The translations under genes and the position numbers were made by a program. Below, piece after piece: positions 17,353 to 59,827 of a stretch of DNA of 64,000 nt (its first letter is position 1; every line of letters begins with the position of its first letter). The notes below the pieces were generated by a model, which did no database searches, had not been told where the DNA came from, and saw nothing but the letters and a program-made list of their open reading frames with translations. Source of the DNA: Sycon ciliatum. Lineage: Eukaryota; Porifera; Calcarea; Leucosolenida; Sycettidae. The DNA lies in contig NC_088654.1 in NCBI RefSeq assembly GCF_964019385.1, positions 19,962,498 to 20,026,497 of the forward strand, given 5' to 3'.

Positions 17353-17584
17353 AGCAATGTCGTCAGGTTGAGCACTCTTACCTTAGCGCGAACCCTTGCC
17401 GCTCGCCTTGTGCAACGCTCACTGCTCTTGGAGCATTTCGAGCACTCTTGGCGGGGTTTGCAGCTCTTTATAAAAATGCTTTGCTTTACGGAAACGTATT
17501 TCATTGCGAAGAGCTGCGCTTCGGTCCTCTGAACTGTGCTGATGAGCTCTAACAGAGCGAAACAGTTGCTGTCCACAGACTTGA
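17353..17584 (+). mobile_element. Hammerhead-bearing retrozyme-like monomer, flanked by 12-bp direct repeats
   Basis: About 232 bp lie between two copies of gttctattgttc (17341-17352 and 17585-17596). It ends in a hammerhead (17534-17578) followed by acttgag, as the other copies end in attgag. The body is only distantly like the copies at 18721-19220 (shared words gttgagcactctt, gagcactcttgg), so it is a separate subfamily. The direct repeats look like a target-site duplication. Confidence 0.7.
17534..17578 (+). ncRNA. Hammerhead ribozyme, type I, copy 1
   Basis: Stem I ctgtg (17534-17538) pairs with cacag (17574-17578). The core CTGATGA is at 17539-17545. Stem II gctc/gagc (17546-17549 and 17555-17558) closes a five-base loop. 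GAAA follows (17559-17562), then a three-pair stem III cag/ctg with a ttg loop, and TC with cleavage expected after C17573. Every conserved hammerhead position is present. Stem I and stem II differ in sequence from the other copies yet still pair, which supports selection on structure. Confidence 0.9.
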
Positions 17585-17639
17585 GTTCTATTGTTCTATA
17601 TATTTTTTTATTTTTAATTGCTATCAATAGCTGATTGCT

Positions 17640-17838
17640 GATAGCAATGAAAATTCAAAATTCCAATCAGGCCCGAACGTACCTTGCCAGAGTGCTCAAA
17701 CTGACAAGTCAGTGAGCTCTGCGCAACGCAAACAGCAAAGGCACTACCCTACATGAAAGTGCTCAACTACTACAAGAGCAGGAGCGAAAATACTCAATCT
17801 GCGGACAGCATGCTGTTTCGTTCTTTGTGAACTCATAT
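17640..17838 (-). mobile_element. Retrozyme-like copy, inverted and 5'-truncated
   Basis: On the minus strand it begins gagttcacaaagaacgaaacagc, that is, inside the hammerhead after the lost CTGAT, and continues through the body to about 17640. It lacks a second ribozyme, so it is not a full monomer with two sites. Confidence 0.75.
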
Positions 17839-17850
17839 ATATATATATAT

Positions 17851-18710
17851 GGGCCTCAACCAGCGAAAACAGCCCTTAGGGTCAACATTTTCAAAATTCC
17901 TTTTTGGTTAGAAATTTGTTGAACCACATCTACTGAAGGACCTCAGCCAAGAAAAAGTTCAATATTCCGATTCTAAACGGGTGTATACACCAATATACAA
18001 TATGTACTCCAAATTGGTGCAATGTATGTATACGATGTATGTGTACAATGAATATTCAGCATTCGAAGGTGGGTGGGCAGCTTGAATACTTTTGAAATAG
18101 TGAAGTAAGCAGCTATAATGACAAAGAATAGCTAATGAGTGCGGAGAGGTGATCGACATATTCGCAGCTTCATCCTGCGTGGAGTCGTTCCGCAATCTCG
18201 TCTTCCATTTCTTCCTCCGCAGCTGAAGACACGACGTCGCTGCGGTCACTAGCCCCAGACTCAGAATTTATCTCAGGTGACGACTCCTCATCTTCCGACT
18301 CTGACGAGTCATAGGCCACCTTGAGCCGCATCGCAGCAGGAGATGACGGCTGCGATCCGCCTCGCTGTCGACACCGATGTCGGAACCAAAGAACGTTTCA
18401 TCCTCATTCTGAACTTCAACGGCTAATTCAGCATCCACTCCCCACCAGGCTCGAGCTAGCTGTAGACAATGACTGCCGTGTGTGCTCTGCGAACAGCTCT
18501 GGCGTCCGCAGCCATCGCAACAAAATCAAGGAACACTGGAGTCGCCACTCGACACCCCTTCAACTTCAAAATAAATTACTTCAAGCCAAGAGTTCAAGAA
18601 GTCGTCGCGCTGTTTGCAGCGCAATCAAAAAATCGTTGAACGTCACAAATCGAACTTTTTTTTGTAAAAATTACGAAATCTCTAAGGGTCGTTTTCGCTG
18701 ATTGCGGCTC
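17851..18710. mobile_element. DNA transposon remnant with about 27-bp TIRs
   Basis: The left end gggcctcaaccagcgaaaac and the right end (inverted) gccgcaatcagcgaaaacg match over about 27 bases, through ccttag. It lies in an AT run between two oppositely oriented hammerhead elements. Inside, the minus frame at 18332-18171 encodes an acidic peptide (SSESEDEESSPEINSES). The plus frame near 18470-18560 has DCRVCSANSSGVRSHRNK, faintly like a Cys-rich transposase tail. No family can be named with confidence. Confidence 0.55.
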
Positions 18711-18720
18711 ATATATAATA

Positions 18721-18949
18721 ATTCGCTCCTGCTCTTGTAGCAGTTGAGCACTCTTGCGTGGGGTAGTGCCTTTGCTGTTTGCGTTATGCAGAGCTCACTG
18801 ACTTGTCAGTTTGAGCACTCTGGCAAGGTACGTTCGGGCCTGATTGGAAATTTTTATTTCCATTGCTATTAGGTTCGGCCTCATTTCCTCTGTGCTGCGC
18901 TGACGAGTCCACAAAGGACGAAACAGTTCTGTCCGCAGATTGAGTATAT
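18721..18949 (+). mobile_element. Hammerhead-bearing retrozyme-like element, copy 2
   Basis: It runs from ttcgctcctgctcttgtag to ccgcagattgag. The body is nearly identical to the next copy (18961-19219). It carries one full ribozyme at its 3' end. Confidence 0.85.
18895..18938 (+). ncRNA. Hammerhead ribozyme, type I, copy 2
   Basis: Stem I ctgcg/cgcag (18895-18899 and 18934-18938). Core CTGACGA (18900-18906), where the C at core position 7 is allowed. Stem II gtcc/ggac with acaaa loop. GAAA at 18920-18923. Stem III cag/ctg with tt loop. Cleavage is expected after C18933. Confidence 0.92.
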
Positions 18950-18960
18950 ATATTTTATAT

Positions 18961-19220
18961 TTATGGACGAAACAGTTCTGTCCGCAGATTGAGTATTTCG
19001 CTCCTGCTCTTGTAGCAGTTGAGCACTCTTGCGTGGGGTAGTGCCTTTGCTGTTTGCGTTATGCAGAGCTCACTGACTTGTCAGTTTGAGCACTCTGGCA
19101 AGGTACGTTCGGGCCTGATTGGAAATTTTTATTTCCATTGCTATCAGGTTCGGCCTCATTTCCTCTGTGCTGCGCTGATGAGTCCACAAAGGACGAAACA
19201 GTTCTGTCCGCAGATTGAGT
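18961..19220 (+). mobile_element. Hammerhead-bearing retrozyme-like element, copy 3, with a partial upstream ribozyme
   Basis: It starts inside a hammerhead (ggacgaaacagttctgtc at 18965-18982), passes through a full body and ends with a complete ribozyme. The distance between the two cleavage points (after 18982 and after 19208) is 226 nt, giving the monomer length. Confidence 0.85.
19170..19213 (+). ncRNA. Hammerhead ribozyme, type I, copy 3
   Basis: Stem I ctgcg/cgcag (19170-19174 and 19209-19213). Core CTGATGA (19175-19181). Stem II gtcc/ggac (19182-19185 and 19191-19194). GAAA 19195-19198. Stem III cag-tt-ctg. Cleavage is expected after C19208. A short outer helix ctc/gag beyond an internal loop in stem I may serve the loop-loop contact. 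Confidence 0.93.
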
Positions 19221-19344
19221 ATTTTATATTTATATATTTATTTATTTTCCTCTGCTTCTTCTTCATAAGCGGTTGACGGAGACTCCCTCGATTTAGGCTA
19301 AGGCCTGTGGAGATTCCATAAATACAAATACAATCAAACTCACC

Positions 19345-19555
19345 CACAGCAATTCCCTTGCCTTAGTCTTTCTGACACTGACCGTTAGGCCCCAGCTGCT
19401 TGCACATGTGATGATGCTGGATGTCATCGCTTCAAAGGCAGGCCGAGATGTTGTGTACAGTGCAGCGTCGTCATCAAACTGGGATTCTGTGACCTTTGAT
19501 GACAGGAGCTTGCCCTTCGCCGCTCGATCACCAACTAGTTTCCTCCCGACTTTAT
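19345..19555 (-). pseudogene. LINE reverse transcriptase fragment with palm motif C
   Basis: The minus frame reads GRKLVGDRAAKGKLLSSKVTESQFDDDAALYTTSRPAFEAMTSS...GLTVSVRKTKA. FDDDAALY stands where the catalytic FADD box is normally found, and GL.VS..KTK is the next conserved block. It is of the group whose C-terminus is seen at 45287-45703. It is about 70 codons long and cut on both sides. Confidence 0.75.
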
Positions 19556-19559
19556 AGTA

Positions 19560-19765
19560 CACCCACACCCACACCCACGCACGCGTACACGCCCGCACCC
19601 GCGCCCGTGCACACGCACACACACGCGCACCCACACGCACACGCACACATACACACACACACCTACCTACCTACCTTCTTACCTACCTACTTACCTACCT
19701 ACCTACCTACCTACCTACTTACCTACCTACCTACCTACCTACTTACTTACCTACCTACCTACTTG
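19560..19765. repeat. Microsatellite (ca-rich, then cctacctact)
   Basis: CA/CCCACG-rich repeats to 19660, then (ctac)n with scattered t changes. Long frames here are meaningless. Confidence 0.9.
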
Positions 19766-19979
19766 CAGACAGCGTATAAACGATGAGCAACTTTCTCTGA
19801 CATACGAAAACACTGCCCGATATGTTTGAGAGTGGTTCCTGTCGTCAGTACTGGCCACCAACATGTTTATCTATAACAGAATGAGGATGCTGATTATGCA
19901 TGAGGTACTGTAGGGCACAACACACACACAACATTCTGTAATGGCCGGTACCAAACTAAAGGCCACCATGTGTACTTAC

Positions 19980-20309
19980 TTTCTTCAGTGGTAGCGATGA
20001 CAACAGTAGCACTGCTCGAGTAAATGGTTGATAGTGTGTAGCTTGCGCGGGCTGTTACAGTGCATGTGTACATTGTAGCATGGGTTAGACCATCAACCAT
20101 TGCAGTTACATTGCCAGGGAGTAGAACACCGCTAGAATCAGTAGCTCGGACTGTTGCTGTTGCTGGTCCTGATGGTGATGATCTCGGACATGACACGACG
20201 TACTCTCTAGTACCTGCTGCATTCCACTGTAAATTAGTCAGAGCAGCCAACGTTACAACCAGAGAAGTTGGGGCTGGATTCACACCGAGTATGGGTACTA
20301 TTTCTGGAT
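19980..20309 (-). CDS. FN3 domain exon (third exon seen)
   Basis: A 330-nt exon with acceptor tttttgcacag above 20309 and a consensus donor GTAAGT directly below 19980. Both ends are phase 1. It encodes about 109 residues starting DPEIVPILGVNPAPTSL and ending SATVVIATTE. This is the clearest fibronectin-III pattern of the set: NLQW, a middle strand EYVVSC, then VDGLTHATMYTCTVTA and the final strand SSSATVVIAT. FN3 domains mediate protein contacts outside the cell. Joined to the exon at 1385-1065 the split codon gives a serine followed by PP, a normal FN3 linker. Confidence 0.75.
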
Positions 20310-20418
20310 CTGTGCAAAAACGAAAGGAGAACATTTGTGGTGTAGAGGTATATTGAAAAAGTTCCTTTTCAACAGGTCAGTATGCTGAAGCATAGTATGT
20401 TGCAGCAAAATTTACGCG

Positions 20419-20601
20419 TCGGGTCTACACGCCACCGATGATAAATTGCAAGAGGTTCAGAACGCACGTGCACCGACGAATGTCATGGAGCTCGAGTCAT
20501 TATTGGGTCTGGTGAATTTTTATTGTCAGTTTATTGAGAACTGGGCTTTGCTCGCACAGCCTCTCTACGATCAGCAGAAGCGCAACACCGCTTGGAAATA
20601 G
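20419..20601 (+). pseudogene. Ty3/gypsy pol fragment (RT/RNase H junction)
   Basis: The frame SGLHATDDKLQEVQNARAPTNVMELESLLGLVNFYCQFIENWALLAQPLYDQQKRNTAWK ends at TAG. The block L.SLLGLVNFY..FI.N...LA.PLY is diagnostic of gypsy-type pol, just past the reverse transcriptase palm. A 60-codon remnant; the stop falls right after AWK, where W is usual. Confidence 0.8.
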
Positions 20602-20988
20602 AGTATGGCTCATCCAGAAACTGTTGAAATGTTGTCTCACCATCCACTCTTTACTTGCTCTTTCCCAGTACAGTTGCCTTGTTATTCACCCTGTCGGCAT
20701 TACGGAAAACACTCACCAAGTTTTTACTTGTAGAAAGGAAAAAGGACATAAGATCCCAACTTGGGTGGCTCAGAAATATCAAAGATAAGTACAGAAGGGG
20801 GAAGCTTTGCGAAAACGAATTTTACAAGCCGAACGCCAAACTCCGACAGTACTCCTCATGCATGACCTAAGGAGTCAAATTTAAGTAGTCAAATATATTG
20901 TGTATTTGACTAAGCAGTCAAATACGCGATATATTTGACCGCTTAGGTATCAAGGAAATTAGTGGGGTCAAATACTGAGAAGGCGATA

Positions 20989-21170
20989 AGCAGCATTATC
21001 AACAACGATACACAGCATTATCAACAACGATACACAGCATTATCAACAACGATACACAGCATTATCAACAACGATACACAGCATTATCAACAACGATACA
21101 CAGCATTATCAACAACGATACGCAGCATTATCAACAATGATACGCAGCATTATCAACAAGGATACGTATA
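20989..21170. repeat. Satellite, 22-bp unit, about 8 copies
   Basis: Unit cagcattatcaacaacgata plus ca or cg. The same unit and the same about 75-bp left flank (gaccgcttaggtatcaagg ... gaaggcgataag) recur at 27612-28972 with many more units. Confidence 0.95.
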
Positions 21171-21371
21171 GATTATAGACCGGTTAGGAGGTCTATACAG
21201 GATATATAGACCAACTATGAGGTCTATAATCTATTTATCGTGTTCTCCACGCAATAGTTTCTCTTCATATACGACATATCCTTGTAATTCTAGTATTATA
21301 CTATAGCCTATACCGCAATGTACGGCATTGCAGGATCAAGGTCATTGTTTAAAGTACGTTCAGCATCGGTA

Positions 21372-21450
21372 GCACAGTGGCTGGGTGGTAAGGAAGAGTG
21401 ACTGAGATTCACAAGGTTGTGTGTTCAAATCCCATCTTGTGTATTTCTGC
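21372..21450 (+). repeat. tRNA-derived SINE-like sequence
   Basis: Has an A-box-like tagcacagtggctgggtgg and, about 45 bases on, a B-box-like tgtgttcaaatccc, spaced as in a tRNA. There is no closed cloverleaf by eye. Confidence 0.45.
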
Positions 21451-22251
21451 TTTCTTCAAAAAATTCTTTTTCTAAGTTGGAGAGAAAATTTCCAAGTCCA
21501 AGAAATTCTAAGGAGTCAAAATGGAAGTTTCCGGAGGAGGAAGGAGGAAACTGTAGTTATCACCAACCCTCACCGCGCCCAGCTCACGCCGCTACGGCGT
21601 GCGACCTGAGCTGGGCACCCTGCCCAGTATGGAACTGGCCTCAAGACAGTCACGTATTCGGCAGCCCAGTGAGCTGTCTACCGGATCGCAGCGTTTAGAA
21701 GCGCCAAATGCGGCAGGACCAGTCTCAGGCTGGTCGCGTAGGCGGCAGGCCGGTGGGCGACCGGCAAGGCTGCATTCGCATTTGGATCACCGAAGTGATA
21801 CAGGTGCTTCGACGGCACTCCGTGGCGCATCAAGGAGGCATCTGGGGCCCAGGCAGCCCGCCCGTAAGCGCACCACCGTATCAGGTATGCGCAGGTGGAG
21901 CAGCAGAGCAAGATGTGTGCCTGACACTCACCATCATCCGGTCGACCGCATGGTTGTGCGACTTTACACAGCCGTCACTCATTACTTGCTATTGCTTGCA
22001 GAAGGCCAGAATTTTTTTTCTTTTTTTCGCTCTTTCCCTTCTTCCAGGCACGGCTTCATGTTAGAGCAGTAAATTGCAGTTAGGGACTCAGCTGAGTCAA
22101 GCTGGACTCAGCGTGTCAAGTTTGGCATAATACAATAAGCGCGCTATCCCCAAACAGTTGTGTGGTTATTGTGTGAGTGTATATGCAGGAGTCCGCGGTC
22201 ACGTGAGGGGGGAGTGATAATATAAGTAGTCAAATATATTGTGTATTTGAC

Positions 22252-24562: not shown

Positions 24563-24706
24563 AATATAATGTACATACATGTAAGAAAGGGTTTGCTCCC
24601 CACACCGGAGCTCGCGCTACATACATACATACATACATGTACATAACGTTACATACATGCATGTGTATATCAATGTACAAAACAACGGCTTATAAGTATA
24701 ACGCTG

Positions 24707-25367: not shown

Positions 25368-25369
25368 GC

Positions 25370-27682: not shown

Positions 27683-28972
27683 GGCGATAAGCAGCATTAT
27701 CAACAACGATGCGCAGCATTATCAACAACGATACGCAGAATTATCAACAATACGCAGCATTATCAACGATACGCAGCATTATCAACAACGATACACAGCA
27801 TTATCAACAACGATACGCAGCATTATCAACAACGATACGCAGCATTATCAACAACGATACGCAGCATTATCAACAACGATACGCAGCATTATCAACAACG
27901 ATACGCAGCATTATCAACAATGACCCGCAGCATTATCAACAACGATACGCAGCATTATCAACAACGATACGCAGCATTACCAACAACGATACACAGCATT
28001 ATCAACAACGATACACAGCATTATCAACAATGATACACAGCATTATCAACACCGATACGCAGCATTATCAACAACATACGCAGCAGTACCAACAACGATA
28101 CGCAGCATTATCAACAACGATACGCAGCATTTACAACGATACGCGGCATTATCAACAACGATACGCAGCATTGTCAACAACGATACGCAGCATTATCAAC
28201 AACGATACGCAGCTTTATCAACAACGATACGCAGCATTATCAACAACGATACGCAGCAGTATCAACAACGATACGCAGCATTATCAGCAACGATACGCAG
28301 CATTATCAACAACGATACGCAGCATTTACAACGATACGCAGCATTATCAACAACGATACGCAGCATTATCAACAACGATACGCAGCATTATCAACAACGA
28401 TACGCAGCATTATCAACAACAATACGCAGCATTATCAACAACGATACGCAGCATTATCAACAACGATACGCAGCATTATCAACAACGATACGCAGCATTA
28501 TCAACGATACGCAGCATTATCAACAACGATACGCAGTATTATCAACAACGATACGCAGCATTATCAACAACGATACGCAGCATTATCAACAACAATACGC
28601 AGCATTATCAACAACGATACGCAGCATTATCAACAACGATACCCAGCATTATCAACAACGATACGCAGCATTATCAACAGCAATACGCAGCATTATCATC
28701 AACGATACGCAGCATTATGAACAACGATTCTCAGCATTATCAACAACGATACGCAGCATTATCAACAACGATACGCAGCATTATCAACAACGATACGCAG
28801 CATTATCAACAACGATACGCAGCATTATCAACAACGATACGCAGCATTACCAACAACGATACACAGCATTATCAACAACGATACACAGCATTATCAACAA
28901 TGATACACAGCATTATCAACAACGATACGCAGCATTATCAACAACATACGCAGCAGTACCAACAGAGCGAGT
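27683..28972. repeat. Satellite, 22-bp unit, about 58 copies
   Basis: Unit cagcattatcaacaacgata plus cg, with occasional 16-, 19- or 20-bp variants and higher-order repetition (the block near 27960-28090 resembles 28840-28965). Three units (66 nt) encode a 22-residue peptide repeat, giving a 427-codon open frame from 27709 to 28992. I regard that as a repeat artefact. Confidence 0.95.
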
Positions 28973-29449: not shown

Positions 29450-29545
29450 CAAGCCAGATATGAAAGAAAGAAAAAAATTAATCATCAGTCAGACCACCGG
29501 GACTCGAACCAAGGACCTTGCTATTCGCAAGCAATGCTCTAACCA
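29450..29545 (-). repeat. tRNA-derived SINE head (degenerate tRNA)
   Basis: The minus strand reads tagctcagttggttagagca (A box and D arm), an anticodon stem ttgct/agcaa, and ggttcgagtcc (B box). The D stem and anticodon stem pair. The anticodon loop is tgcgaat, with G instead of the universal T at position 33, and the T stem has a mismatch, so a working tRNA is unlikely. The copy is flanked by agaatca words and (ata)n runs, as in a retroposed SINE. Confidence 0.6.
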
Positions 29546-30060
29546 ACTGAGCTACAGTATGACTCTTATCCACAGTGAATCAGAATCATAATAATAATAA
29601 TAGCCCGAAGCAAGTATGTCCATGTATGTCTCAAACCATGCGTCCTTGAGGCATAAGCCGCAAGAGGCTCCACCGCCGCACCGTTAGAACCTTCAGCTCT
29701 TGAATACTCTCATCCGTTCGCTGAATTGCAATATCACTCGCTTTAGTGCTCTACATTCTGTAGGAAAAATTGTGAAATTGTGGAATTTGTGGATTCAACA
29801 ATAAACAGGGTGTCACAGGGCAGTGGGAAGTGATAGGCCCCTGGGTTGTCTTCAATGTAGTAAATGTATTTTATTATTATTTATTTTTTTACAATGATCA
29901 CAGCTCACAGGCAAAGACGAAAAATTGCATAGTGGGAGCATAGTGATGGTGAGGCTTTTTGCCCTCAGCCGACCTGAGGTCTCGACGTCATGGGGACATA
30001 AAACGCACCAAAAAAAGAAGAAAAATGAAAGGAGTGACAGGTACATGATACGAAATGTTA

Positions 30061-35229: not shown

Positions 35230-36690
35230 AAGGTTAAAACGAACGAATACTTTCCTTATCGGACAAATATCGAATATCATCGGCATAAAGTTGATTCAAT
35301 GCATTTTGGAAGCACTGTGGTGCATCACGGGTGTAAATGCAAAATAGCAATAGGCCGAGCACGGAGCCTTGTGGGACGCCTCTTGTGCAAGGGCGGGTCC
35401 CACCTAGCTGTTGCCCTACTCTTACTCGCTGGACGCGTCTGGTCAGGTAGCTTGCAAACCAAGCAAGTGCAGTGTCAGCAATGCCAAGCATCTTCAACTC
35501 GTCAATGAGCTCTTGATGCTTAACTCGGTCAAAAGCTTTGCTCATATCTGCAAACACTATGCCGCAGCACTCGTTGTTATCAAGGGCTTTGAGCCATTCG
35601 TCGACCACTAGCGCTAGGCAGTCCTCACACGAGCTGTTGGTACGGTAGGCAAAGTGATTGTCGGGCACGTACATGATGTTGTGTAACTTAAAGAATGCAA
35701 TCAGCTGCTCCAAGACAACTCGTTCTAATATCTTGCTGCATATGGGCAATAATGAGACTGGTCTGTAATTAGTAGAGCTTTCTGCATCGCCTGATTTGAA
35801 AACTGGGCTGACTGTGGCATTCTTGAAAATATCTGGTACGCACTCTGTGCTCAGAGATTTATTGATAATATCAGTGAGAGAAACTGCTATGGAATCACGA
35901 CCATGCTTCAGCACGGCTGGTAAGACATTGTCAGAGCCAGGTGACTTACTTGTGTTTGTTGCTTTGAGCAGTGTGGTGATGTGCGCCACAGTTACGGGTC
36001 AAAAATGGGACAGTCGAGCAATAGTAGTTGGCTGTTGGGTGGCTGGGCGTAAACATAATTATGTCAGCAGGCTGGCTTGGATCGTGCACTACGTTAGCAA
36101 ATGTCTCTGTCAAACTACTGAGAGATGCAATTGGCTGATTTCTTACTTTCCGCCTGCCAGACAGACTGTTAAGAAGAGCCCACTGACCTCTAGGATTTTG
36201 TCGGAGTGCCGAGAACTGGTGCATCAGGAAATGGGATTTCAGTCTCCTACTCAGAAGCAACCCCTCGCGTCTGACAGAACAATACTGTTGCCTAAGAACC
36301 ATATTCCCAGGCTGCGAAAGGACTCTACGATGCAGAGTAGTTCTGCGCTGCAGCAGCTTCCGTAACTCTGGTGTTGCCCACGGTTGAGGCTTAGGTTTGG
36401 GACAGAGGGGTAGTCTAACTTGTTTAGATGGAGCATGCGTATCAGTAACAGCAACGATAGACGTTAAAAGATGGCAAGTTTGACTGTCCAATGTTGAAAA
36501 TGAGGATGAGTCCTCGAGCATCATTCAGTAAACTCAGAGTAGTTGTTAGTAACTATTCCTGGTTTTCTCACAACCTTAGTTCTCTGGGTTGCTGGGGGCT
36601 TCCATTCCGGTATTACAATATCAAGGCGGACTAGGGGGTGATCAGTAAGATCTGACATGGGAATGATCTTTGGATTGGGCAATGGAAAGG
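35230..36690 (-). pseudogene. LINE ORF2 fragment (CR1/Jockey-like reverse transcriptase)
   Basis: On the minus strand the end of the endonuclease (SDLTDHPLVRLDIVIPEW, near 36640) is followed by a connecting region (36524-35946). After a frameshift near 35980 comes a reverse transcriptase: TSKSPGSDNVLPAVLK, NYRPVSLLPICSKILERVV, FADMSKAFDRV (motif A, aspartates present), GVPQGSVLG (motif B) and YADDI (motif C). It breaks off at 35230 after the palm. Unlike the LINE at 4046-10535 it keeps motif A, so it is a different or less damaged lineage. The piece is about 1.46 kb. Confidence 0.85.
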
Positions 36691-40838: not shown

Positions 40839-41705
40839 AGGCGTAAACATTCAAATACACGTACAGTAGGTATCGGTTATAGCGTGGGTGTTTGAGAAAC
40901 GACTTTCTATTCTTATATCCGATATTTCTTACACACGATCCATCAAGTGTGCCATATCATATGCATGTGTGCAGGGACAGGAAGATCATCGTACGTGCAA
41001 CGTAGTGCTACTGTGCATGTGGCTGGTCATAGTCCCATTGGCCATAGGCTTACCATGTGGCTATCCAACATGAGTTACATGACCACAACAGTTGAACCTG
41101 CAGCACTACGACGCAACGCGAGTCAGATCAGAACTGCATGGGACAGATGTTATTACTACAGGTGATACACCTTGTACTAATCTCAGTGGCGTAGCCAGGG
41201 GGGGGGGGGGGTGCTTTGGGTGCCCAAGCACCCCCCTCAAAAATTTCAGGTACCATTTTCGTACTGCTGTGGATCTACGCCCGCCCGCGATCGAGACTCG
41301 ACGTCAACAAGATCGACGCCACACGACGCTGCGCTGCACGACGGGGCCCGGCCAACTGTATTACTGGGCGTGTTGGCGTACATATCCACGTGTCATTATC
41401 GTGTACCACGTGGGCTGTCCCTGCCGCGCCGCATGCAGGTTGCACTTGAGACTGCATGCATGGCTGCACATGCAGTCATGTTCTCGCCGGTGACAGGCGC
41501 AGTAGTGCTAAATTATTAATTTTTAGTACAATGTAGTACTACCAGTACTGTAATTTGAACTAGTACTACCGTGGTAGTATAGTTGTGTGTAGATCTTTGC
41601 CTTTGAATGTGAGTTTGGTCGTTTTCGGATGCACTGCGCATTGTACAACTACCGGTATATAGACTCGCACTTTGTGTAGCTAGACTTGGTAGAAGTGAAA
41701 GAGAA

Positions 41706-44174
41706 GTGTCAACGTCGTTTTGTGATCCGCAAGTCGAATGGATTCTTATGAAAATGTCGATCTTGAAGTATTTCAGTCGAGGGAAGTCGAAGAGACCAGA
41801 TACCAGTAGCAGCAGTGCCAGTGCCATTTCCGAATCTGACGAATCTAATTGCGAAATTGTCGAAGTCGAAGGCTCGGAAGAGCCGCAGTTGTCGCCCTTG
41901 GCTGTACCAGTCGCAGTCGTCCGAAATGACATCGGTACCTTCATGGAGGACATTGCGAAGGGTGCACCGCTCGACGACGACGTGATGTTTGCCCTGCTAA
42001 AGGACCATGTCCAACCGGATTGTTCGTTTGTTTTCCCGAAGAATGGTGGCCGGTCTTTTCAGCCCCGCTGGCTCGATGTATACAAGCCATGGCTGGTGTT
42101 TAGCCCTTCGCTTTCCAGCGGAGTCTGCATTCCATGCTGTCTATTTGCAAATGCATTCCGAGGATCGTCGCTCGGTGTTTTGGCAAGACGTCCCTTGACG
42201 AACTTTCGGAAAGCACTGGCGCTCCTGGATGAGCATATGGGGAAAGCCTACCACCAGGACGCTGTGGTAAGAGCTGACGGCTTCCTCAGTGTCATGGAGG
42301 GGAAAACGAAGGACATAGCACAGCTGACCAATGATGGACTCGCGGCTAGGGTAGCTGCGAATCGCGCCAAGTTGGAGGCGATAATCAAAATCCTGATCTT
42401 GTGCGGCAGACAAAATATTCCTCTGCGAGGTCACAGAGACGCCAGCACAAACAAGGAGGCCGCGGATTCCGCAAACTGTGGAAATTTCTGGGCTTTGATG
42501 GACTTCAGAGTGGAGGCTGGTGACAAGATCCTAGCTGGTCATATTGCTTCTGCCCCAGCCAATGCAACGTACACGTCAGGAGATATCCAGAACCAACTGA
42601 TCGACATCATTGGTGACCAGATTGCCCAGAGGATTGTTGATCGGGTCAAGGATGCTGGATGGTTCACGGTCATCGCTGATGAGGTGACAGATGTGGCAAA
42701 CAAGGAGCAACTCAGGTTGGTGTTACGGTACGTGGACCTATCGACAAAGGTGGTTCGAGAGGATTTTGTCGTGTTCGTTGAGTGTGCAGCAGGAGTTACC
42801 GGAGAGGCCCTCGCTAAGCTGATCACGGATACCATCACCAGTCTTGGCCTTGACCTTGGCAAGCTCCGTGGACAGAGCTATGACGGAGCAGGCAACATGG
42901 CAGGAGCCAGGAAAGGTGCCGCTGCCCGTATCACAGAGAAGTACCCCCGAGCTTTGTACCTGAACTGTGCCTCGCACTGCCTGAACTTGGTGGTCGTCTC
43001 ATCTCTGCAAGATCGTTTGGTGCAGAATATGATGGGCGTCGTCACCCGAGTAGCAGTTTTCTTCGACTCCCATCCGAAACGCCAGAAAGCGCTCGAGGCC
43101 GCTTTGAATGATGCAGACGAGGAACCTGATACATCCAAGGTAAAGGATCTCTGCAGGACACGGTGGGTGCAGCGACTTGATGCACTGGAATCCTTCTTGG
43201 CCCTTCACCCCATGCTTGTGGTCTGCTTCAATGCAATCCTGGATGAAGGTCCCCAGGCGTGGTCAAGAGATTCCATTACGGATGCGAATGGTTTGCTGAC
43301 GGCTATCACCAACACCGACTTTATCGCAGCCTTAGTTATTGTCAACAAGTGCCTTCATTACGTGCGTGGCATCACCTCCAGTCTCCAAGCAGAAGCCAAG
43401 GACTTGATTGCAGCAATGCACGATGTGAGTTCCGTCACAACCACACTGGCAGAAGTCCGAAGAAATGTGGACAAGTACCATGGTGAGTGGTTTAAAGTGG
43501 TGAAGTCCATATGTGAGGCAGTGCACGTTACGCCATCACTTCCTAGGCTGTGTGGTCACCAGACCCAACGGAACAACGTTCAGGCCGATACGCCCGTCCA
43601 GTACTACCGACGTGCCCTGACAGTGCCCATTCTGGACCACATGGTGTCGGAGATAGAGGCCAGGTTCACGCCGCTCGACTCGACCGCACTCCAGGGCTTC
43701 TGTGCCATCCCAGCACTGCTGCTAAAGATGTCCATGGACGCTGCGAAGTCCCAAGTACAGGAGCTGGTGAAGCTGTATGACGACGACTTTGTGTCTGGCC
43801 GTAGTATGGAGGCTGAGCTCCACTGCTGGCGCGTGAAGTGGGTGAAGGCAAAGGCAGAGCACGGTGAAGCTAGCTTGCCGACCTCGGTATCAGCAGCGCT
43901 ACCCCACGCTTCCCAGATGTTCCCGAACATCCGCTGCCTTCTGCAACTTCTTGCAACCTTGCCAGTGACGTCTTGCTCGTCCGAACGGTCCTTCAGCGCC
44001 CTGAAACTGGTCAAGGACCGGCAGAGATCAGTGATGAAGAACTCCCGGCTGACTGGCCTCACCTTGCTGCAGGTTCATCATGACATTCCAGTTGACGTGG
44101 GTGCGGTCATCGATGAGTTTGCTCGCCGCCATCCACGACGAATGCAGCTGGTGAATGTATTGCACAGTGAATGA
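41706..44174 (+). CDS. hAT-family transposase, intact, 822 codons
   Basis: The gene encodes the DNA-cutting and joining enzyme of the surrounding hAT transposon. The N-terminal 80 residues are acidic and serine-rich. A TTF-type zinc-finger region follows near residues 117-160 (FQPRWLDVYKPWLVFS....GVCIPCCLFAN). Then comes the DUF4371-like part (GHRDASTNKEAADSANCGNFWALMDF). The RNase-H-like catalytic fold shows VIADEVTDV (near 323) and GQSYDGAGNMAG (near 391). The C-terminal hAT dimerisation motif is TLPVTSCSSERSFSALKLVK (near 750-770). It is similar in layout to the animal 'repressor of the inhibitor of protein kinase-like' and ZMYM-like transposases. There is no stop or frameshift. A downstream start at M16 (MKMSILKYFS) is an alternative. 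GC content is higher than in the flanks. Confidence 0.92.
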   Translation: MSTSFCDPQVEWILMKMSILKYFSRGKSKRPDTSSSSASAISESDESNCEIVEVEGSEEPQLSPLAVPVAVVRNDIGTFMEDIAKGAPLDDDVMFALLKDHVQPDCSFVFPKNGGRSFQPRWLDVYKPWLVFSPSLSSGVCIPCCLFANAFRGSSLGVLARRPLTNFRKALALLDEHMGKAYHQDAVVRADGFLSVMEGKTKDIAQLTNDGLAARVAANRAKLEAIIKILILCGRQNIPLRGHRDASTNKEAADSANCGNFWALMDFRVEAGDKILAGHIASAPANATYTSGDIQNQLIDIIGDQIAQRIVDRVKDAGWFTVIADEVTDVANKEQLRLVLRYVDLSTKVVREDFVVFVECAAGVTGEALAKLITDTITSLGLDLGKLRGQSYDGAGNMAGARKGAAARITEKYPRALYLNCASHCLNLVVVSSLQDRLVQNMMGVVTRVAVFFDSHPKRQKALEAALNDADEEPDTSKVKDLCRTRWVQRLDALESFLALHPMLVVCFNAILDEGPQAWSRDSITDANGLLTAITNTDFIAALVIVNKCLHYVRGITSSLQAEAKDLIAAMHDVSSVTTTLAEVRRNVDKYHGEWFKVVKSICEAVHVTPSLPRLCGHQTQRNNVQADTPVQYYRRALTVPILDHMVSEIEARFTPLDSTALQGFCAIPALLLKMSMDAAKSQVQELVKLYDDDFVSGRSMEAELHCWRVKWVKAKAEHGEASLPTSVSAALPHASQMFPNIRCLLQLLATLPVTSCSSERSFSALKLVKDRQRSVMKNSRLTGLTLLQVHHDIPVDVGAVIDEFARRHPRRMQLVNVLHSE

Positions 44175-51944: not shown

Positions 51945-53360
51945 CAGTCTTCCCTCTCTAATCCGGCACATGTATAATTATACAGCACCCTTGCAAACCA
52001 CCACACTTTCTGACAAAAAGGAATTTTTCAGTTCATTTTCTACACTTTGATCCGACACTTGAATTCTGCCTCCAGCAGCAATTTTTGCAACAAATCGCTC
52101 AAACTGTACTTTTAACTGTTGGACTCGAAATCGAATTAAAATTCGATCTCGAGTCCAACAGTTGTACATCACATACCATACCGGAGCACAGCTACATGTA
52201 TGCCAGTTTAGTCAATACATGACGTGCACAAACTAACCTATCTCTGCGCGTGTACTTTCTGAATGTCACAAACGGTTGAGAACATAATTATTAGGGCATC
52301 AAGAAAGGTTCGAAGGTTCTAAAACAGGTTTCTGAACATGCATGATCTCAAAATCTACTTTAAACTCTGAAAAGCATGCCAAGAGCATGAAACGACAAAA
52401 ATGCAAATAAATCTTGCAACAGTGATGCCTTTCCGGCTATTGGTTGCCTTCAAAGTTTGCACACAGATTATTGTTCTGCATGACATGATGTGTATACCTA
52501 TGCCATGACAAGTGCTGTGAGATGCTAACAGTCACCTACTCGACAGTCCTAGCAGGTTGGAACCTTCATTCGTTTAGATTAGAAGGGTTCTTCAGCGATT
52601 TAGAACATTCGTTGCAGCCCTGATAAGTATCACATCTACAGTGTACGCAATGTACAGCCTACAGTGTACGCAATGTACAGCCTACAGTGTACGCAATGTA
52701 CAGCCTACAGTGTACGCAATGTACAGCCTACAGTGTACGCAATGTACAGCCTACAGTGTACGCAATGTACAGCCTACAGTGTACGCAATGTACAGCCTAC
52801 AGTGTACGCAATGTACAGCCTACAGTGTACGCAATGTACAGCCTACAGTGTACGCAATGTACAGCCTACAGTGTACGCAATGTACAGCCTACAGTGTACG
52901 CAATGTACAGCCTACAGTGTACGCAATGTACAGCCTACAGTGTACGCAATGTACAGCCTACAGTGTACGCAATGTACAGCCTACAGTGTACGCAATGTAC
53001 AGCCTACAGCTTATGCACTATAGGCTACACAATCTACACTCTGTATGGACATGCATTCCGCAAAGCCCTTGGATTGACACGGGAAACCCTTGCGTTTTGA
53101 CGAATAACACAAACATGCATGTTAGATAAGTGGGCCACCTTGGGCGGCAGGATTTGTTAAAACCAGCACCCTTGTTTACTTGTATTTTTATTATTCTCAA
53201 TCCGTGGCTGACATAGTGTCCACCGATGTAATGAATGAGGGCTATCAGCCATGGAAAAAGATTAAAAGAACAAGAAGGCAGGAAAAACGCACACTCAAAA
53301 TATGGTTTATCCAGTAGAAAATGCCGTTGCACAACGTGCCGGACTAGAGAGGGACAGCTG
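51945..53360. mobile_element. Pogo/Tigger-like element containing a satellite
   Basis: 1416 bp. Left CAGTCTTCCCTCTCTAATCC, right inverted CAGCTGTCCCTCTCTAGTCC, then ggcac, TA both sides. Same termini as the 186-bp MITE at 33905-34090. A hairpin (52114-52136 with 52141-52163) and the 23-bp satellite lie inside. Confidence 0.75.
52637..53008. repeat. Satellite, 23-bp unit, about 16 copies
   Basis: Unit tacagtgtacgcaatgtacagcc split after 20 as tacagtgtacgcaatgtaca + gcc. Copies are identical. It contains the near-palindrome tgtac...gtaca. All three plus frames are open through the array as a by-product. Confidence 0.95.
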
Positions 53361-53466
53361 TACTTCTAGTACAAGTAGACAGGAAAACATTTAAACACTT
53401 TGGTAAAGACTAAAGAACAGATTACTCGCATAGCAGTGGCAGCGCCGAAGTCAGATGCGCGGAACC

Positions 53467-53766
53467 AAGAGTAGATAAACAAGAGTGTGCAACTCCGGGA
53501 TGGGTTGGTCCGCGGCGGAATTTTTTGTTGACGTAATCTTTCGACGATGCACGCGCTGCGAGTCTTTTGGAAAGTGTTGCCTCGTGCACTTGGCCGGGCT
53601 TTACATTACAAAGTCGGTGCCCAGCACGTGCTCTCACACTGCTCTGGGGCAAAATGCGCGTTCTTCTGAAAAAAGGTGACGTGAACAAAAAATTCCGCCG
53701 CGGGCGGGGGTATCTGCAGATTGTGCAGGAGAGATCCGGAGTTGCACACTCTTGTTTATCTACTCT
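53467..53766. mobile_element. MITE with AAGAGTAGATAAACAAGAG termini
   Basis: About 300 bp. The ends match perfectly for about 32 bp (through tgtgcaactccgg), flanked by gcggaacc on both sides (an 8-bp direct repeat). The interior has a second inverted pair (ggaattttttgtt / aacaaaaaattcc). Confidence 0.85.
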
Positions 53767-53770
53767 TGGC

Positions 53771-54732: not shown

Positions 54733-54821
54733 TCCACTAGAAGTCAGATCATCGAAAGTTTCCTTTGAGAACGGGTTGAAAAAGCATGAAGTAAAAACCA
54801 AAGCTACTATCACTATCACTG
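54733..54821 (+). CDS. Candidate host exon (89 nt), unrecognised
   Basis: Pyrimidine-rich acceptor tcgtctttctgactactgcag immediately before, and a perfect donor GTAAGT immediately after. The frame that stays open encodes PLEVRSSKVSFENGLKKHEVKTKATITIT, flanked by split codons (phase 2 in, phase 1 out). The charged, repeat-free sequence looks coding. No partner exon could be identified on either side and no domain is recognised, so this may be chance. Confidence 0.3.
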
Positions 54822-57620
54822 GTAAGTTAGTTGTAGATCTACCACAGTACCAGTGAGTTACATAGTCATTGTCATAGGTCCTCTTAGTGTGAGTGATAAA
54901 ACCTCCTCTATTGCTGAACTCACAAGTTGTGATACAAACGATAGTAATTACAATCATTACGTGTACCTATCCACAATCCTGCTACATACTGGACCTGGTA
55001 GATCTGCCAAGTAGGCCTTGTCAGCATCGTTGTTTATTGTCATCTGTTTGTAGCATGCTGGCAGTTGTTCTGACATGAACTTTGACCACTAGGTTCACAG
55101 ATTGACCCTGGAAGGTGCGTTATCGTTAGTTAGTGTGTGGCTACTATCTGTAGTAGATGAGTACAGTGCTGGCAACTGAAATCCGACCCCCTTGCCCGCG
55201 CGGCGCGCTGGCAAGTGGGTCGGATTTCAGTTGCCAGCACTGTACTACAAAAATTGTATTGTACTTATCTGCCAACTCTGATGTTCGCCTTCTTTATGCA
55301 GAGGCGCTTGGGCGGACTACGACCACAACAGGCGAGGACGCATAGTGCTCCTGACTACAACCATAACCCGGTTGGCAGGGTCACGGTCTTGCGACCATTT
55401 GAACCGTATTGCCTTGTAACATGTTACTTTGAAATCGAAAAACAGAAACTGATCCTTTTTTAATATTAAATTGATGCCGCTCTCTCGTGTGCTCCCAACA
55501 ATTCTCAATAGCAACATCAGGTGGTTCTTCCTTTGTCTTTCTGCGAAGTCGTACAGGATACTAGTAACCAGTTATGCTAGGCTGTGTAGACAAGCGCTCA
55601 GCTGGAAGCGCTTGCAAATGCTTCGAAACTGCAACGATCGAATGCTCTCGATCGATCGCTTCAAGTGAATGAAAATTAATAATTTTAAAATAATTTTTTT
55701 GTTGAGTGAGTAGTTAGTTACAATAGCTCGTCGTCGCAGTTGTGAATATTCTGGAGTTCATGAGGCCAAACGAAGGCTACTCGAAGCTGAGAACCATTTA
55801 TTTTGGTCTCGACATAGTGGCGTTGCGACCAACTCAGAACAAATAGCTGTAGTAACCTGTCAAGAATCTGAGAACTAGTCAACAAAGCTGAGGAGGAGCA
55901 GAGGTGTTTCCATCGACAACGTAGGATGGAGATTTCAACATGCTTCTACAGCTGAAGCGACTTTCAATGCAGAGACGATCGCTGATCATCTACTATTCTA
56001 GGTATTAGATGTGGCTGTCAAACGCTTCTGGCCTTGGATGTGGATACGACGAGTTTATGCTCAACGTGCAGTTGTTCATGATGCACCTGAGGTGCAGCTA
56101 ACGCTGCTGCAAACATGGTGTTCAACAATGATTGAATCTCAGGGAGAACAGCATGAACCCAGCCGTTCTGTGTATAAAACTATCCCTGACACTGAGCTGT
56201 GTTGGCCAGCACAAGAACCCGTAGTGTGTGTAGGCTGCAATTTTACTAGGTGCTGATCTTATAGTGTGCTGGATGGTCAAGGGAATGAAGCCCTACCTGA
56301 ATCAAACCCACAATGTTCTGCACATGGACAAGCAACTAAAGAGAGCAGAGTGACAATGATCCTTACAAACATGCTTTCTTGGATAATTTCTTCTTGGATA
56401 CTTTCTTGGATATTTTCTTGGATATTTTTTTTTCCAACATGCTTTCTTGGATATTTCACCTACAAGTAGGGTTATCCCTCCGGTCCATTTTTTCGCTGAC
56501 TCGCCCTTGTCCAATCCGCCCCAAACTTTGTGTACATGACCCTCAAATAGAAATAATTTCCACCAGAAAAACCATTGTTGAAATGTTTGGCCTGTAGTAT
56601 ACATCATGTAGGTCTGCTTCTGCTGATCATGGCTCATGTATGCAATGGAATGGAATGGCTGGATTGATGATATGAATCCAGCCATGAAGGTCAGATGAGC
56701 TACCGGTATGCGTAAATCCTTTTGATGCTGTGCCTGTTTTTCATTCTCACATTCCTCCGGACTTCGTTCGCTAAATAAACTGCTAGGCTAGTCCTCTCTT
56801 CTTTTCACTATTCGCCAGACTCTAAGTTTCCCGAAAAGTCCCCGCACGAATGTACCCTCGCCAACTACGGTTCATGTGTAGTTCCACTCGCTACTTCGCT
56901 GTTTGTGGCAGTTTGAGAGATTACTATCCTAACTTGCCCTGGAGGCGGTAAGCTTTTACTTGCAGTGCTGAACCGGCTCAGCTTATGATGGAGCTTATAG
57001 TGAGTATCTGCATGTGGATGTAAATGCCTAAGAGGAGAGGAGTCTAGGTTTTAGGCGAGAGAATCTGGCCACTGTCATGTGGATATGTTTTGGTGTGTGC
57101 ACGGCTTCCTGTGGTCAGTCAAATCAGTCATGATCTTGAGCGTTTCCTATTTACTTATATCTCGACCCTCTGCTTGCCAACATACCGTACTTGTGCGCAC
57201 AAAAGCATGTGTGCTCAAATCTGAATAGATTCTGGGTTGGACGGAATCAAACTAACACCCGAAGCACAGAAGTAATAATAATTGTAGTTTCGACTAGGCA
57301 CTTCGTACGATTTCTTCTTAAGTCGAAAACAGTAGTGATTGAAGCCGCAGCAAGCAAGTCCTTATATCTGGCACTTTGGTGGTCAGAGCAGTGACAAAAA
57401 TAGCACCTAAGAAAGCGCTAGTGGCGCCAACTGCATAGTGAGACAATCAATACAGAGCGTATTATCCAACAACAGTGGGGACTACGGTACCACAATGTCA
57501 AAACAACTTTCGCACATACTTCTTCTAAACACACAGTTCAGGCTTCAGAGTTTGCAATGCACACCGCCTCCAGGAGAGCAAGGTCAGGTTTGTTGCGCGC
57601 ACGCGCTTGGATATTGAGGT
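54822..57620. other. Mostly unannotated DNA with one hairpin
   Basis: A strong hairpin (55161-55195 with 55211-55245; arms gtacagtgctggcaactgaa and following) stands out. A short tcttggatatttt tandem lies at 56375-56455. No gene is recognised. Confidence 0.45.
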
Positions 57621-57906
57621 GCGAGTGAGTGCTGTGTTTGCAGACTGCGAGTGAGTGCTGTGTTTGCAGACCGCGAGTGAGTGCTGTGTTTGCAGACTGC
57701 GAGTGAGTGGTGTGTTTGCAGACTGCAAGTGAGTGCTGTGTTTGCAGACTGCGAGTGAGTGGTGTGTTTGCAGACTGCAAGTGAGTGCTGTGTTTGCAGA
57801 CTGCGAGTGAGTGCTGTGTTTGCAGACTGCAAGTGAGTGCTGTGTTTGCAGACTGCGAGTGAGTGGTGTGTTTGTAGACTGCGAGTGAGTGCTGTGTTTG
57901 CAGACT
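57621..57906. repeat. Satellite, 26-bp unit, 11 copies
   Basis: Unit gcgagtgagtgctgtgtttg plus cagact, with c/g and g/a variants. The minus strand is open through it (57525-58232, 235 codons) with a non-repeat upstream part. That part (SLPGEGSRTVPRIDSAS...) is not recognised. Confidence 0.93.
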
Positions 57907-58462
57907 GCACTCAGGCAGGTCGGTGACGATGCCAGGTGACGGAGTATTGCAGAGTCCTTCTCACTATCACCATCGTCAGGGGGTCCATTCGTAGGGTTCC
58001 TGCTATGCAGTGACAAGGTTAAGGAGCGTCTCCGCAACAACTCCCTGCAGGAAGTGGCTGAGGCGGAATCGATGCGTGGAACAGTGCGTGACCCCTCACC
58101 CGGCAGAGACGCCACCAGCAGCACAGCTGAACGAACCCGAAAAACTGGGTTGTGTCGCTTGACCAACTGATGTTGGTAGCGCACCCGCTTTATGAAATGG
58201 CCGTAAATACATGCCTGCTCACATGCACCCACTCGCCCCCACCCCTCTCTCTAACTTTGCAAAGCTCCGGCAAAGAGTGCACCTTCCAGCACCACCATAG
58301 CTTTGACCCTGGCATGGAGCCTCATCAATGCATGGCTGCTGGTAGGTGTAACTTATGTGTCAATGCACAAATAACTATATTGAACGGACTTTATAAATGT
58401 AGTACCTGCACTACCAGGCATACATGCAAAACATTTCAGTGTGTGCTGAAGAAATTCCACTG

Positions 58463-58980
58463 CTGGGCATACTCATGGTTGATAAATATGGTGGTAAAGA
58501 CACACCTGGCAATATGGCGGTAAACACACGCCTGCCCACACACGCTCTCTAGGCTGCAAAGTTCTGGCACAGAGCTCTCCTTCTCACCACCACCACCATC
58601 AGTTCGCACCATATTTATCAACCATAAGTACAGCTGCAGTGATGTCTTCAATTTCATTCTCCCGAGTCAAGCTCCGTATGAAGACATCCAAGAAGAAGAT
58701 TGCCTGACGAGTCCAGCGGGGACGAAACGTACGTCGCAATCGAGCTATGCCGTTGCTGTGTCATCATCTATGTGCCATGCGCTACTTGATGTACCAGCCT
58801 GCTATGCCGGATACCGCCAGCCACGCATCGACCAGGCGCCAGGCGCGAACTGATGGTGGTGGTGGTGAGAAGGAGAGCTCTGGCACCAGAACTTTGCAGC
58901 CTAGAGAGCGTGTGTGGGCAGGCGTGTGTTTACCGCCATATTGCCAGGTGTGTCTTTACCACCATATTCATCAACCATAA
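58463..58980. mobile_element. Foldback element with about 150-bp arms around a hammerhead
   Basis: 58472-58614 recurs inverted at 58849-58977 with small gaps (ccgccatattgccaggtgtg and its inverse, gagagcgtgtgtgggcaggc and its inverse). A third, diverged copy of the arm is at 58196-58300. The 234-bp centre holds a hammerhead ribozyme (58698-58741). It could be two head-to-head copies of a small hammerhead element. Confidence 0.8.
58698..58741 (+). ncRNA. Hammerhead ribozyme, type I, second family
   Basis: Stem I gattgc (58698-58703) pairs perfectly with gcaatc (58736-58741). Core CTGACGA (58704-58710). Stem II gtcc/ggac (58711-58714 and 58720-58723) with a five-base loop agcgg. GAAA 58724-58727. 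Stem III is the minimal cg-ta-cg, then TC, with cleavage expected after C58735. All conserved bases are present. The stems share nothing with the 17-19 kb and 59 kb family apart from stem II, and the surroundings are unrelated. Confidence 0.88.
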
Positions 58981-59058
58981 GTACAGCTGCAGTAATGTCT
59001 TCAATTTCATTCTCCTGGGCATACTCCTTGATTTAAATAGATCTTCAGAGATCAGACA

Positions 59059-59111
59059 CACTCTATCTCTCTCTACCTCATTCTATCTCTCTCCATCTAT
59101 CTATCTATCTA

Positions 59112-59184
<73 letters not shown>
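59059..59184. repeat. Microsatellite (ct)n and (atct)n
   Basis: Long tctctc run bordered by tctatctatc. Confidence 0.95.
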
Positions 59185-59185
<1 letters not shown>

Positions 59186-59186
<1 letters not shown>

Positions 59187-59350
59187 TTCCACTCAGGCCC
59201 GAACGTACCTTGCCAGAGTTCTCAAACTGACAAGTCAGTGAGCTCTGCGTATTGCAAACAGCAAAGGCACTACCCCACATGAGAGTGCTCAACTACTACA
59301 AGAGCAGGAGCGAAAATACTCAATCTGCGGACAGCATGCTGTTTCGTTCT
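59186..59350 (-). mobile_element. Retrozyme-like copy, inverted, truncated at both ends
   Basis: The minus strand starts in the hammerhead (agaacgaaacagcatgctgtc) and ends in the body at attggaaat-like sequence. It forms a head-to-head palindrome with the next copy. Confidence 0.85.
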
Positions 59351-59552
59351 CAACAGCATGCTGTCCGCAGATTGAGTATTTTCGCTCCTGCTCTTGTAGT
59401 AGTTAAGCACTCTCATGTGGGGTAGTGCCTTTGTTGTTTGCATTACGCAGAGCTCACTGACTTGTCAGTTTGAGCACTCTGGCAAGGTACGTTCGGGCCT
59501 GATTGGAAATTTTATTTCCATTGCTATCAGGTTCGGCCTCATTTCCTCTGTG

Positions 59553-59598
59553 CTGCGCTGATGAGTTCACAAAGAACGAAACAGCATGCTGTCCGCAG
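59553..59598 (+). ncRNA. Hammerhead ribozyme, type I, copy 4
   Basis: Stem I ctgcg/cgcag. Core CTGATGA (59558-59564). Stem II gttc/gaac (59565-59568 and 59574-59577), a paired C-to-T and G-to-A change relative to gtcc/ggac in copies 2 and 3. Loop acaaa. GAAA 59578-59581. Stem III cagc-at-gctg, one pair longer than in copies 2 and 3. Cleavage is expected after C59593. Confidence 0.94.
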
Positions 59599-59781
59599 AT
59601 TGAGTATTTTCGCTCCTGCTCTTGTAGTAGTTGAGCACTCTCATGTGGGGTAGTGCCTTTGCTGTTTGCATGACGCAGAGCTCACTGACTTGTCAGTTTG
59701 AGCACTCTCGCAAGATACGTTCGGGCCTAATTGGAAATTTTTATTTCCATTGCTATCAGGTTCGGCCTCATTTCCACTGTG

Positions 59782-59827
59782 CTGCGCTGATGAGTTCACA
59801 AAGAACGAAACAGCATGCTGTCCGCAG
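59782..59827 (+). ncRNA. Hammerhead ribozyme, type I, copy 5
   Basis: Identical to copy 4 in core and stems: ctgcg 59782-59786, CTGATGA 59787-59793, gttc/gaac, GAAA 59807-59810, cagcatgctg 59811-59820, TC, cgcag 59823-59827. Cleavage is expected after C59822. Confidence 0.94.

Follow-up and report, generated by a model that had tools for sequence, protein, structure and literature searches.

Metazoan retrozymes that lack long terminal repeats (LTRs) are abundant and are described as units of 170–400 bp with type I hammerhead ribozymes, present as dimers to multimers and flanked by target duplications of more than 4 bp (PMC7229834); Penelope-like elements (PLEs) are regarded there as strong candidates for their mobilisation, and not as more than that (PMC7229834, PMC7761336). 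Analysed here is a 64,000-nucleotide stretch of the genome of the calcareous sponge Sycon ciliatum (NC_088654.1, positions 19,962,498–20,026,497), referred to as the window, which carries two families of hammerhead-bearing units, family A (unit of 229 bp, G+C content 47.2%) and family B (unit of about 352 bp, 53.3%). Genome-wide scans covered the 538-Mb assembly. We conclude, with a probability of roughly three in four, that both families belong to the animal retrozymes and are non-autonomous, most likely inserted by a PLE enzyme of the same genome. The motifs sit in a small, very numerous mobile element of known kind; what is new is the evidence from their insertions, by which the hammerhead retrozyme family B is linked to the Penelope machinery and a paired mode of priming is suggested.

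In their type I hammerhead, unit size, tandem copies and duplications, both families are like the metazoan non-LTR retrozymes, from which they differ as new sequence families in a sponge host with mapped start sites, B moreover occurring mostly as head-to-head arrays with a PLE-like tail. With plant LTR retrozymes they share a non-autonomous nature, a hammerhead and a proposed circular RNA, but the plant elements have type III hammerheads, LTRs, a primer binding site and 4-bp duplications (PMC4918200, PMC7761336), whereas the hammerheads here are of type I and the duplications measure 8–16 bp; inspection by eye showed no LTR and neither a primer binding site nor a polypurine tract, no dedicated search for these having been made. 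The satellites of newts and schistosomes also hold type I hammerheads in short tandem repeats, the newt stem III being weak (PMC7229834), but are other sequences, set apart here by description only, and insertions with fixed ends are visible in the sponge.

Closest in layout are the PLEs. For the anole element PAc, cleavage and extension of both strands have been shown in vitro, with initiation at two adjacent internal sites (PMC11167929), and for rotifer Penelope it is already known that just one of the paired inverted pseudo-LTRs may bear a tail, with duplications of 8–10 bp (PMC3846280). Shared with these elements are inverted head-to-head arms, an optional tail of about 31–37 bp on one arm, short duplications, an internal start and AT-rich targets. 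Unlike PLEs, the A and B units, at 229 and 352 bp, hold no reverse transcriptase (RT) or endonuclease frame and run for many laps per insertion; no frame of at least 150 aa lies within them, and frames for RT and GIY-YIG endonuclease occur elsewhere in the genome. The initial annotation of the window had reported five hammerheads of one family that was not known to have been described. As regards the sequence family this fits a limited search of the open-access full-text literature, in which no report of hammerhead retrozymes in sponges, or of PLE-type inverted arms in retrozymes, was recognised, but the kind of element has been known since 2016–2020.

Family B composites and Penelope-like elements

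The family B copy of the window is composed of two arms joined head to head:

58475–58610, − strand: antisense arm of B, which ends on its outer side at the short site (about 19–24 in the unit)
58607–59014, + strand: sense arm of B with a length of 1.16 units, which ends on its outer side at the long site (56 in the unit)
58626–58662, + strand: 37-nt tail between the two B initiation sites, holding AGCTGCAGTGATG and resembling Penelope-like tails
58698–58741, + strand: family B hammerhead, predicted cut after C58735; stem III ACGTACGT palindromic; 37.4 bits with RF00163

Flanking this composite is the 12-nt repeat CTGGGCATACTC (58463–58474 and 59015–59026), a length equalled at 2 of 1000 random positions. 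Genome-wide, family B loci were counted among the 150 matches listed of 181, a first look having given 1163 B places. The 39 loci comprise 23 head-to-head pairs within 60 bp, two with wider gaps and 14 in a single orientation, and none is a tail-to-tail pair; the window copy is tallied with the single-orientation loci, its antisense arm lying outside the matches listed. Arms reach at least 13.9 units. The junctions fall at many unit positions, and in 13 of 23 the arms share an overlap of 1–7 nt. The loci C8:10106321 and C8:10364525 appear to derive from a single insertion by copying.

Both outer ends were fetched for ten of the 25 head-to-head loci. One arm ends at 12–21 and the other at 52–62 in all ten, in either orientation, and with the window copy included one arm stops 32–47 nt before the end point of the other in 11/11 composites. 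The ten are flanked by repeats of 8–13 nt, seven of which exceed the longest repeat (9 nt) among 90 mismatched pairs.

A comparable arrangement is found in the PLEs of this genome. A search of the assembly for GIY-YIG gave 13 matches, from which nine 10-kb regions were fetched; L058 and L059 hold long RT and GIY-YIG frames. In five of five PLE composites, a set chosen for its inverted arms, one arm bears a tail of about 37 nt and the other has none (by script in L058, L059 and L065, by eye in L064 and L066). Their duplications span 11–14 nt, against at most 7 in 20 mispaired controls, and tailed and tailless forms both occur among 20 further PLE 3′ ends. Inverted arms, a tail on one arm and short duplications, together the integration signature of PLEs, are seen in 11/11 B composites and 5/5 PLE composites, and not in family A.

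Within the tails of three diverged PLE lineages is the motif AGCTGC..GATG..TC, and AGCTGCAGTGATG occurs in the B tail at an almost equal offset; none of 3000 shuffles was as similar to the three PLE tails as B. The pattern AGCTGCNNGATGNNTC fits the PLE tails and not that of B, where an extra base is present; across the genome it has 443 matches, against four for its reversal. At L127, a PLE 3′ end stands tail to tail with a hammerhead retrozyme of A′, a divergent lineage of family A, across a short AATAATAATAAC stretch.

It is most likely that a PLE mobilises family B, because the two have the same double-arm layout, nearly the same offset (about 37 nt in PLEs), the same size of duplication and a common tail motif. 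On balance we lean towards a more specific proposal, in which B would be a cis-acting partner of PLEs resembling a short interspersed element (‘SINE-like’) that bears their tail, and both would be inserted by paired target-primed synthesis, the two DNA strands priming at two fixed sites some 37–39 nt apart on a circular hammerhead RNA and each copy making up to about 14 laps. If this is true, the optional PLE tail is the difference between the start sites of the two strands, and the enzyme that mobilises animal retrozymes is named.

Hammerheads do occur in PLE pseudo-LTRs (PMC7761336), and a hammerhead-like core CTGATGATGGC..GCCGAAACG lies close to the 3′ ends of the PLEs of this genome (L058–L066 except L060); as the layout and duplications of the units also match those of PLEs, the units might be pseudo-LTR pieces of an autonomous PLE rather than a separate non-autonomous retrozyme. 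We consider this very unlikely: the A, A′ and B units have no match in the nine GIY-YIG regions (E ≤ 1e-3), copies among the matches listed are 229- or 352-bp units, single or tandem, and the five annotated hammerheads possess a stem III, which is mostly lacking in reported PLE hammerheads. The core in L062 and L066 has GGT/ACC in place of GGC/GCC, and its stems I and III are not convincing.

Twin priming, as known for L1, yields a variable second start. That an enzyme of the long interspersed element (LINE) type mobilises the units, with the inverted arms arising by such priming, appears quite unlikely in view of the B composites, where each arm has its own narrowly confined start in 11/11 cases, as in PLEs. 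In favour of this explanation, LINEs are present (for example at 4159–7878 of the window), duplications of 9–16 bp are also compatible with them, and the antisense arm of the window A composite starts non-canonically, at position 144, as under twin priming.

Head-to-head arms could also arise by fold-back self-priming of a single complementary DNA, as proposed for rotifer Penelope (PMC3846280), instead of by priming on two strands. Palindromic stem III sequences are available for this, and the window A junction lies at one of them, CAGCATGCTG. The outer ends of the B and PLE composites, however, are two specific starts, one per arm, mostly with target duplications, and the B junctions are spread over the unit, with the short overlaps given above; we regard fold-back as unlikely and retain priming of the two target strands by a PLE-type enzyme as the likeliest explanation of family B.

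Family A insertions

Family A and its divergent form A′ occupy two parts of the window:

17330–17578, + strand: divergent family A unit (A′) ending in a hammerhead; left limit approximate, from alignment to A units
17534–17578, + strand: A′ hammerhead, type I, with CTGTG/CACAG as stem I and GCTC/GAGC as stem II; predicted cut after GTC
17638–17837, − strand: partial antisense family A copy, 5′ end within the hammerhead
17844–18717, no strand assigned: unrelated insert of about 874 bp between antisense and sense A copies; 36-bp terminal inverted repeats, 86%
18719–18944, + strand: family A unit, 3′ end at a GAG/TAT boundary
18895–18938, + strand: family A hammerhead; CTGCG/CGCAG, GTCC/GGAC; RF00163 30.1 bits
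18965–19219, + strand: second family A insertion adjoining the first, about 1.1 laps
19170–19213, + strand: family A hammerhead; RF00163 28.2 bits
59185–59350, − strand: family A antisense arm, head to head with 59352–59836
59352–59836, + strand: sense arm of A, covering 2.12 units and terminating 3′ in GAGTAT
59553–59598, + strand: family A hammerhead, GTTC/GAAC, predicted cut after C59593; stem III CAGCATGCTG palindromic
59782–59827, + strand: family A hammerhead of the second unit, predicted cut after C59822; RF02275 22.1 bits

The insertion at 18965–19219 is flanked by the 14-bp duplication TATTTTATATTTAT (18951–18964 and 19220–19233), a length reached at 0 of 1000 random positions, and the 275-bp spacing of the motifs at 18.9–19.2 kb is the 229-bp unit plus the 46-bp junction of this insertion. 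At 59 kb the target is a TATC microsatellite, and the 13-nt repeat on both sides is uninformative. The unrelated insert, next to TATATA, is possibly a DNA transposon.

For a wider sample, 36 loci were taken with a full-unit query and 24 with a query of the 79-nt 3′ end, in addition to the two window stretches; from the 79 pieces, 4 cut by the edge of a locus and 5 duplicate insertions were removed, leaving 70 that are independent. Sixty of the 70 end 10–16 nt past the cleavage site. The 3′ ends lie after GATTGAG, with TA or TAT often common to unit and target, and the 5′ ends are scattered. Lengths range from 0.14 to 3.98 laps (60 pieces; 0.38–2.71 in the 3′-end sample), and an array cut by the edge of L067 comprises about six units. 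Duplications of at least 9 nt are found at 30 of 60 pieces (mispaired control mean 2.8, maximum 8); 16 of the 30 are scored by script as not simple repeats, two of them being nearly simple (control mean 0.75, maximum 3), and 12 of the 16 start with TA. Insertions with clear duplications span 0.4–2.4 units, and those of 1.0–2.4 laps read across the cleavage site, so that the A template was circular or multimeric; a linear cut monomer as the usual template was rejected on the same insertions.

Ten diagnostic columns were compared within 14 A arrays, five loci that are segmental copies having been omitted. Discordances number 22 in 410 comparisons (shuffled mean 38.7%, minimum 16.3%), and the pair of units at 59 kb in the window is concordant at every diagnostic column; allele sharing of this kind fits repeated copying of one template. 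By eye, CTC/CCC upstream can pair with GAG/GGG before the A 3′ end in several subfamilies, no such pairing being seen in L096 and L101; with such pairing, initiation would be located at the hammerhead base. That a PLE also mobilises family A is the weaker claim.

Some long arrays, reaching at least 13.9 units, and loci that are segmental copies would suit satellite DNA spread by unequal exchange, with the ribozyme as a relic. Fixed 3′ ends, target duplications, the distribution of 74 listed matches over 13 contigs and compensatory changes in the hammerhead fold make this scarcely credible, and an origin as satellite alone was rejected on the target duplications. We accordingly keep to retrozyme insertion for family A as well as B.

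Conservation of the hammerhead fold

A descriptor requiring stem I of at least 4 bp, CTGANGA, stem II of at least 3 bp, GAA, stem III of at least 2 bp and UH gives seven separate matches in the window, one of which also fits a second partner; 60 first-order Markov sequences, each 64 kb long, yielded five hits (about 0.08 per window). The five motifs of the initial annotation (17534–17578, 18895–18938, 19170–19213, 59553–59598 and 59782–59827) proved exact in coordinates and stems, and changes on both strands of a stem were confirmed at three base pairs (pair 2 of each stem and pair 3 of stem II). They are related, but instead of one family they form two lineages plus close copies, the copy at 17534 being a sister lineage with 78% identity over 55 bp. 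The initial annotation had recorded neither a sixth motif nor the antisense arms, and lacked the 229-bp unit and the nature of the 275-bp spacing; the insertion structure and family B, which we judge to be the more informative part, were likewise absent from it.

The sixth motif, that of family B at 58698–58741, is the only window hammerhead reported by Rfam at the gathering score (Hammerhead_1, RF00163, 37.4 bits, cut-off 34). Hammerhead_1 gives 30.1 bits at 18895 and 28.2 bits at 19170, and HH9 (RF02275, cut-off 52) gives 27.8 bits at 17534, 24.1 at 59553 and 22.1 at 59782, with E of 0.002 to 0.6 for 4227 families. All five annotated motifs are below threshold, which the initial annotation had considered enough to dismiss them; we hold that wording too strict, because the genome-wide pattern has 5976 matches against none when reversed and because 35 stem combinations show covariation.

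This pattern, CTGANGA-N10-18-CGAAACAG-N0-6-CTGTC, matches the two strands of the assembly 3047 and 2929 times. From 138 places with the pattern (the window and 78 fetched loci), 35 distinct stem combinations were drawn. Standard pairs make up 165 of 175 in stem I (shuffles mean 136.5, maximum 148) and 135 of 140 in stem II (mean 104.5, maximum 116), values uncorrected for relatedness, and stem II pair 2 is seen as C-G, T-A, G-C and A-T; stem III is set by the search pattern, and hence lies outside this comparison. The hammerhead fold is conserved, and is of type I in both A and B. The annotated reading of type I hammerheads with a short stem III and a maintained fold, similar to those of animal retrozymes, is borne out by the covariation, unit size, tandem layout and duplications. 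Applied genome-wide, the Rfam model placed four of 74 scored candidates above the cut-off, from 76236 first-look candidates; none exceeded it in 14 control genomes, and an exact-pattern scan of viral contigs gave no matches.

Other hammerhead-like sequences were observed. At 17220–17261 (− strand) of the window is a motif with stem I GTTGC/GCAAC, stem II GTGCA/TGCAC and cut site GTA, with relatives in L017 (an inverted pair) and L043; together they are likely to be a third hammerhead family. A further hammerhead group with distinct downstream sequence comprises L091, L092, L094, L095, L100, L102, L106 and L108, stem III being mostly shrunk to the palindrome CAGCTG. The motif GGTGATTCCTGAAGAGTGTTGTACGAAAAC..GAATCATC occurs in inverted pairs in L009 and L061, the latter adjoining a near-perfect palindrome.

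Proposed mechanism and other elements of the window

Copies of the elements would be transcribed, and the multimers would be cut to units by the hammerheads, as the conserved fold suggests; the units would then be closed into circles. An RT is proposed to start at a fixed internal site of the RNA, primed by the nicked and often AT-rich target, because the 3′ ends are fixed and the targets duplicated. Synthesis, probably around a circle, would extend from a partial lap to the several laps seen in multi-unit insertions. For family B, the other DNA strand would usually prime a second copy at a distance of about 39 nt, and both copies, which are found head to head, would be joined afterwards. With the agreement between the insertion scars of family B and of PLEs, the role of PLEs in retrozyme insertion can be tested in an in vitro system that already exists, and the PLE tail becomes a mechanistic clue.

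A number of observations weigh against these conclusions. Transcription, cleavage, RNA circles, the enzyme and the order of events are matters that we infer from genomic sequence. Minimum-energy folding of the six isolated motifs gave the three-way hammerhead in none, and the fold energies of the unit RNAs are no better than those of shuffles (z of −0.27 and 0.27), so that the units do not show high self-pairing, a descriptive, not defining, feature of retrozymes. The G+C content of animal retrozymes is given as <50% (PMC7229834), a figure agreeing with A (47.2%) and exceeded by B (53.3%). Copies around the four ctgcg motifs are about 92–99% identical, and hence are not independent evidence of the fold.

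On the connection with PLEs, the five PLE composites were picked because inverted arms were present, and three of the ten B duplications are within the control maximum. As many as 15 of 20000 random 37-mers of the window match the PLE tails equally well, and a scan found three further places in the window with such a score. The whole B 3′ region was matched to that of PLEs as well by 223 of 2000 shuffles, so that only the short tail motif shows a significant likeness; an overall resemblance to the 3′ region of PLEs was rejected for A as well (96 of 1000 shuffles as good). Family A is without the tail motif, its best score being 23 against 31 for B, and was rejected on that score as a carrier of it. 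In the anole study the choice of start site did not differ between the strands (PMC11167929).

Within family A, inverted pairs are few and follow no rule of one short and one long arm; both arms are at the same site in L011, and the antisense arm of the window 59-kb composite has its outer end at position 144. Mixed arrays, with mean within-array identities of 93.9–96.5%, are present in L013, L027, L070 (and its copy L071), L089 and at 59 kb in the window, L070 alone accounting for 12 of the 22 discordances; template jumping is an alternative, and not every array need derive from one monomer circle. A stop after a full lap, seen in 16 of 39 cases in the first sample and 3 of 21 in the second, is mostly a selection effect and was discarded as proof of circles.

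The rest of the window contains several other elements. A long near-perfect inverted repeat at 14338–14556 is the source of sub-threshold microRNA and small nucleolar RNA matches, and matches of this kind were attributed to chance or to inverted repeats. The LINE at 4159–7878 (+ strand) consists of a zinc-knuckle open reading frame 1, just under the Pfam cut-off, and an endonuclease–RT open reading frame 2, and an RT fragment lies at 35234–35998 (− strand). An apparently intact hAT-type open frame of 853 aa (DUF4371 and hAT dimerisation) occupies 41613–44174 (+ strand), its best named match by E-value being in Priapulus caudatus (45%), with 51% to Amphimedon; the highest identity among named matches, 62% over 54% of the query, is to an entry bearing the tag scpid, which denotes Sycon ciliatum. 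A tRNA-like match of 35.7 bits is at 29489–29561 (− strand). Minisatellites at 20984–21165 (8 copies) and 27685–28964 (59 copies), 6.5 kb apart, have a near-identical 22-bp unit, CGATACRCAGCATTATCAACAA, and others are located at 15745–16432 and 52636–53009.

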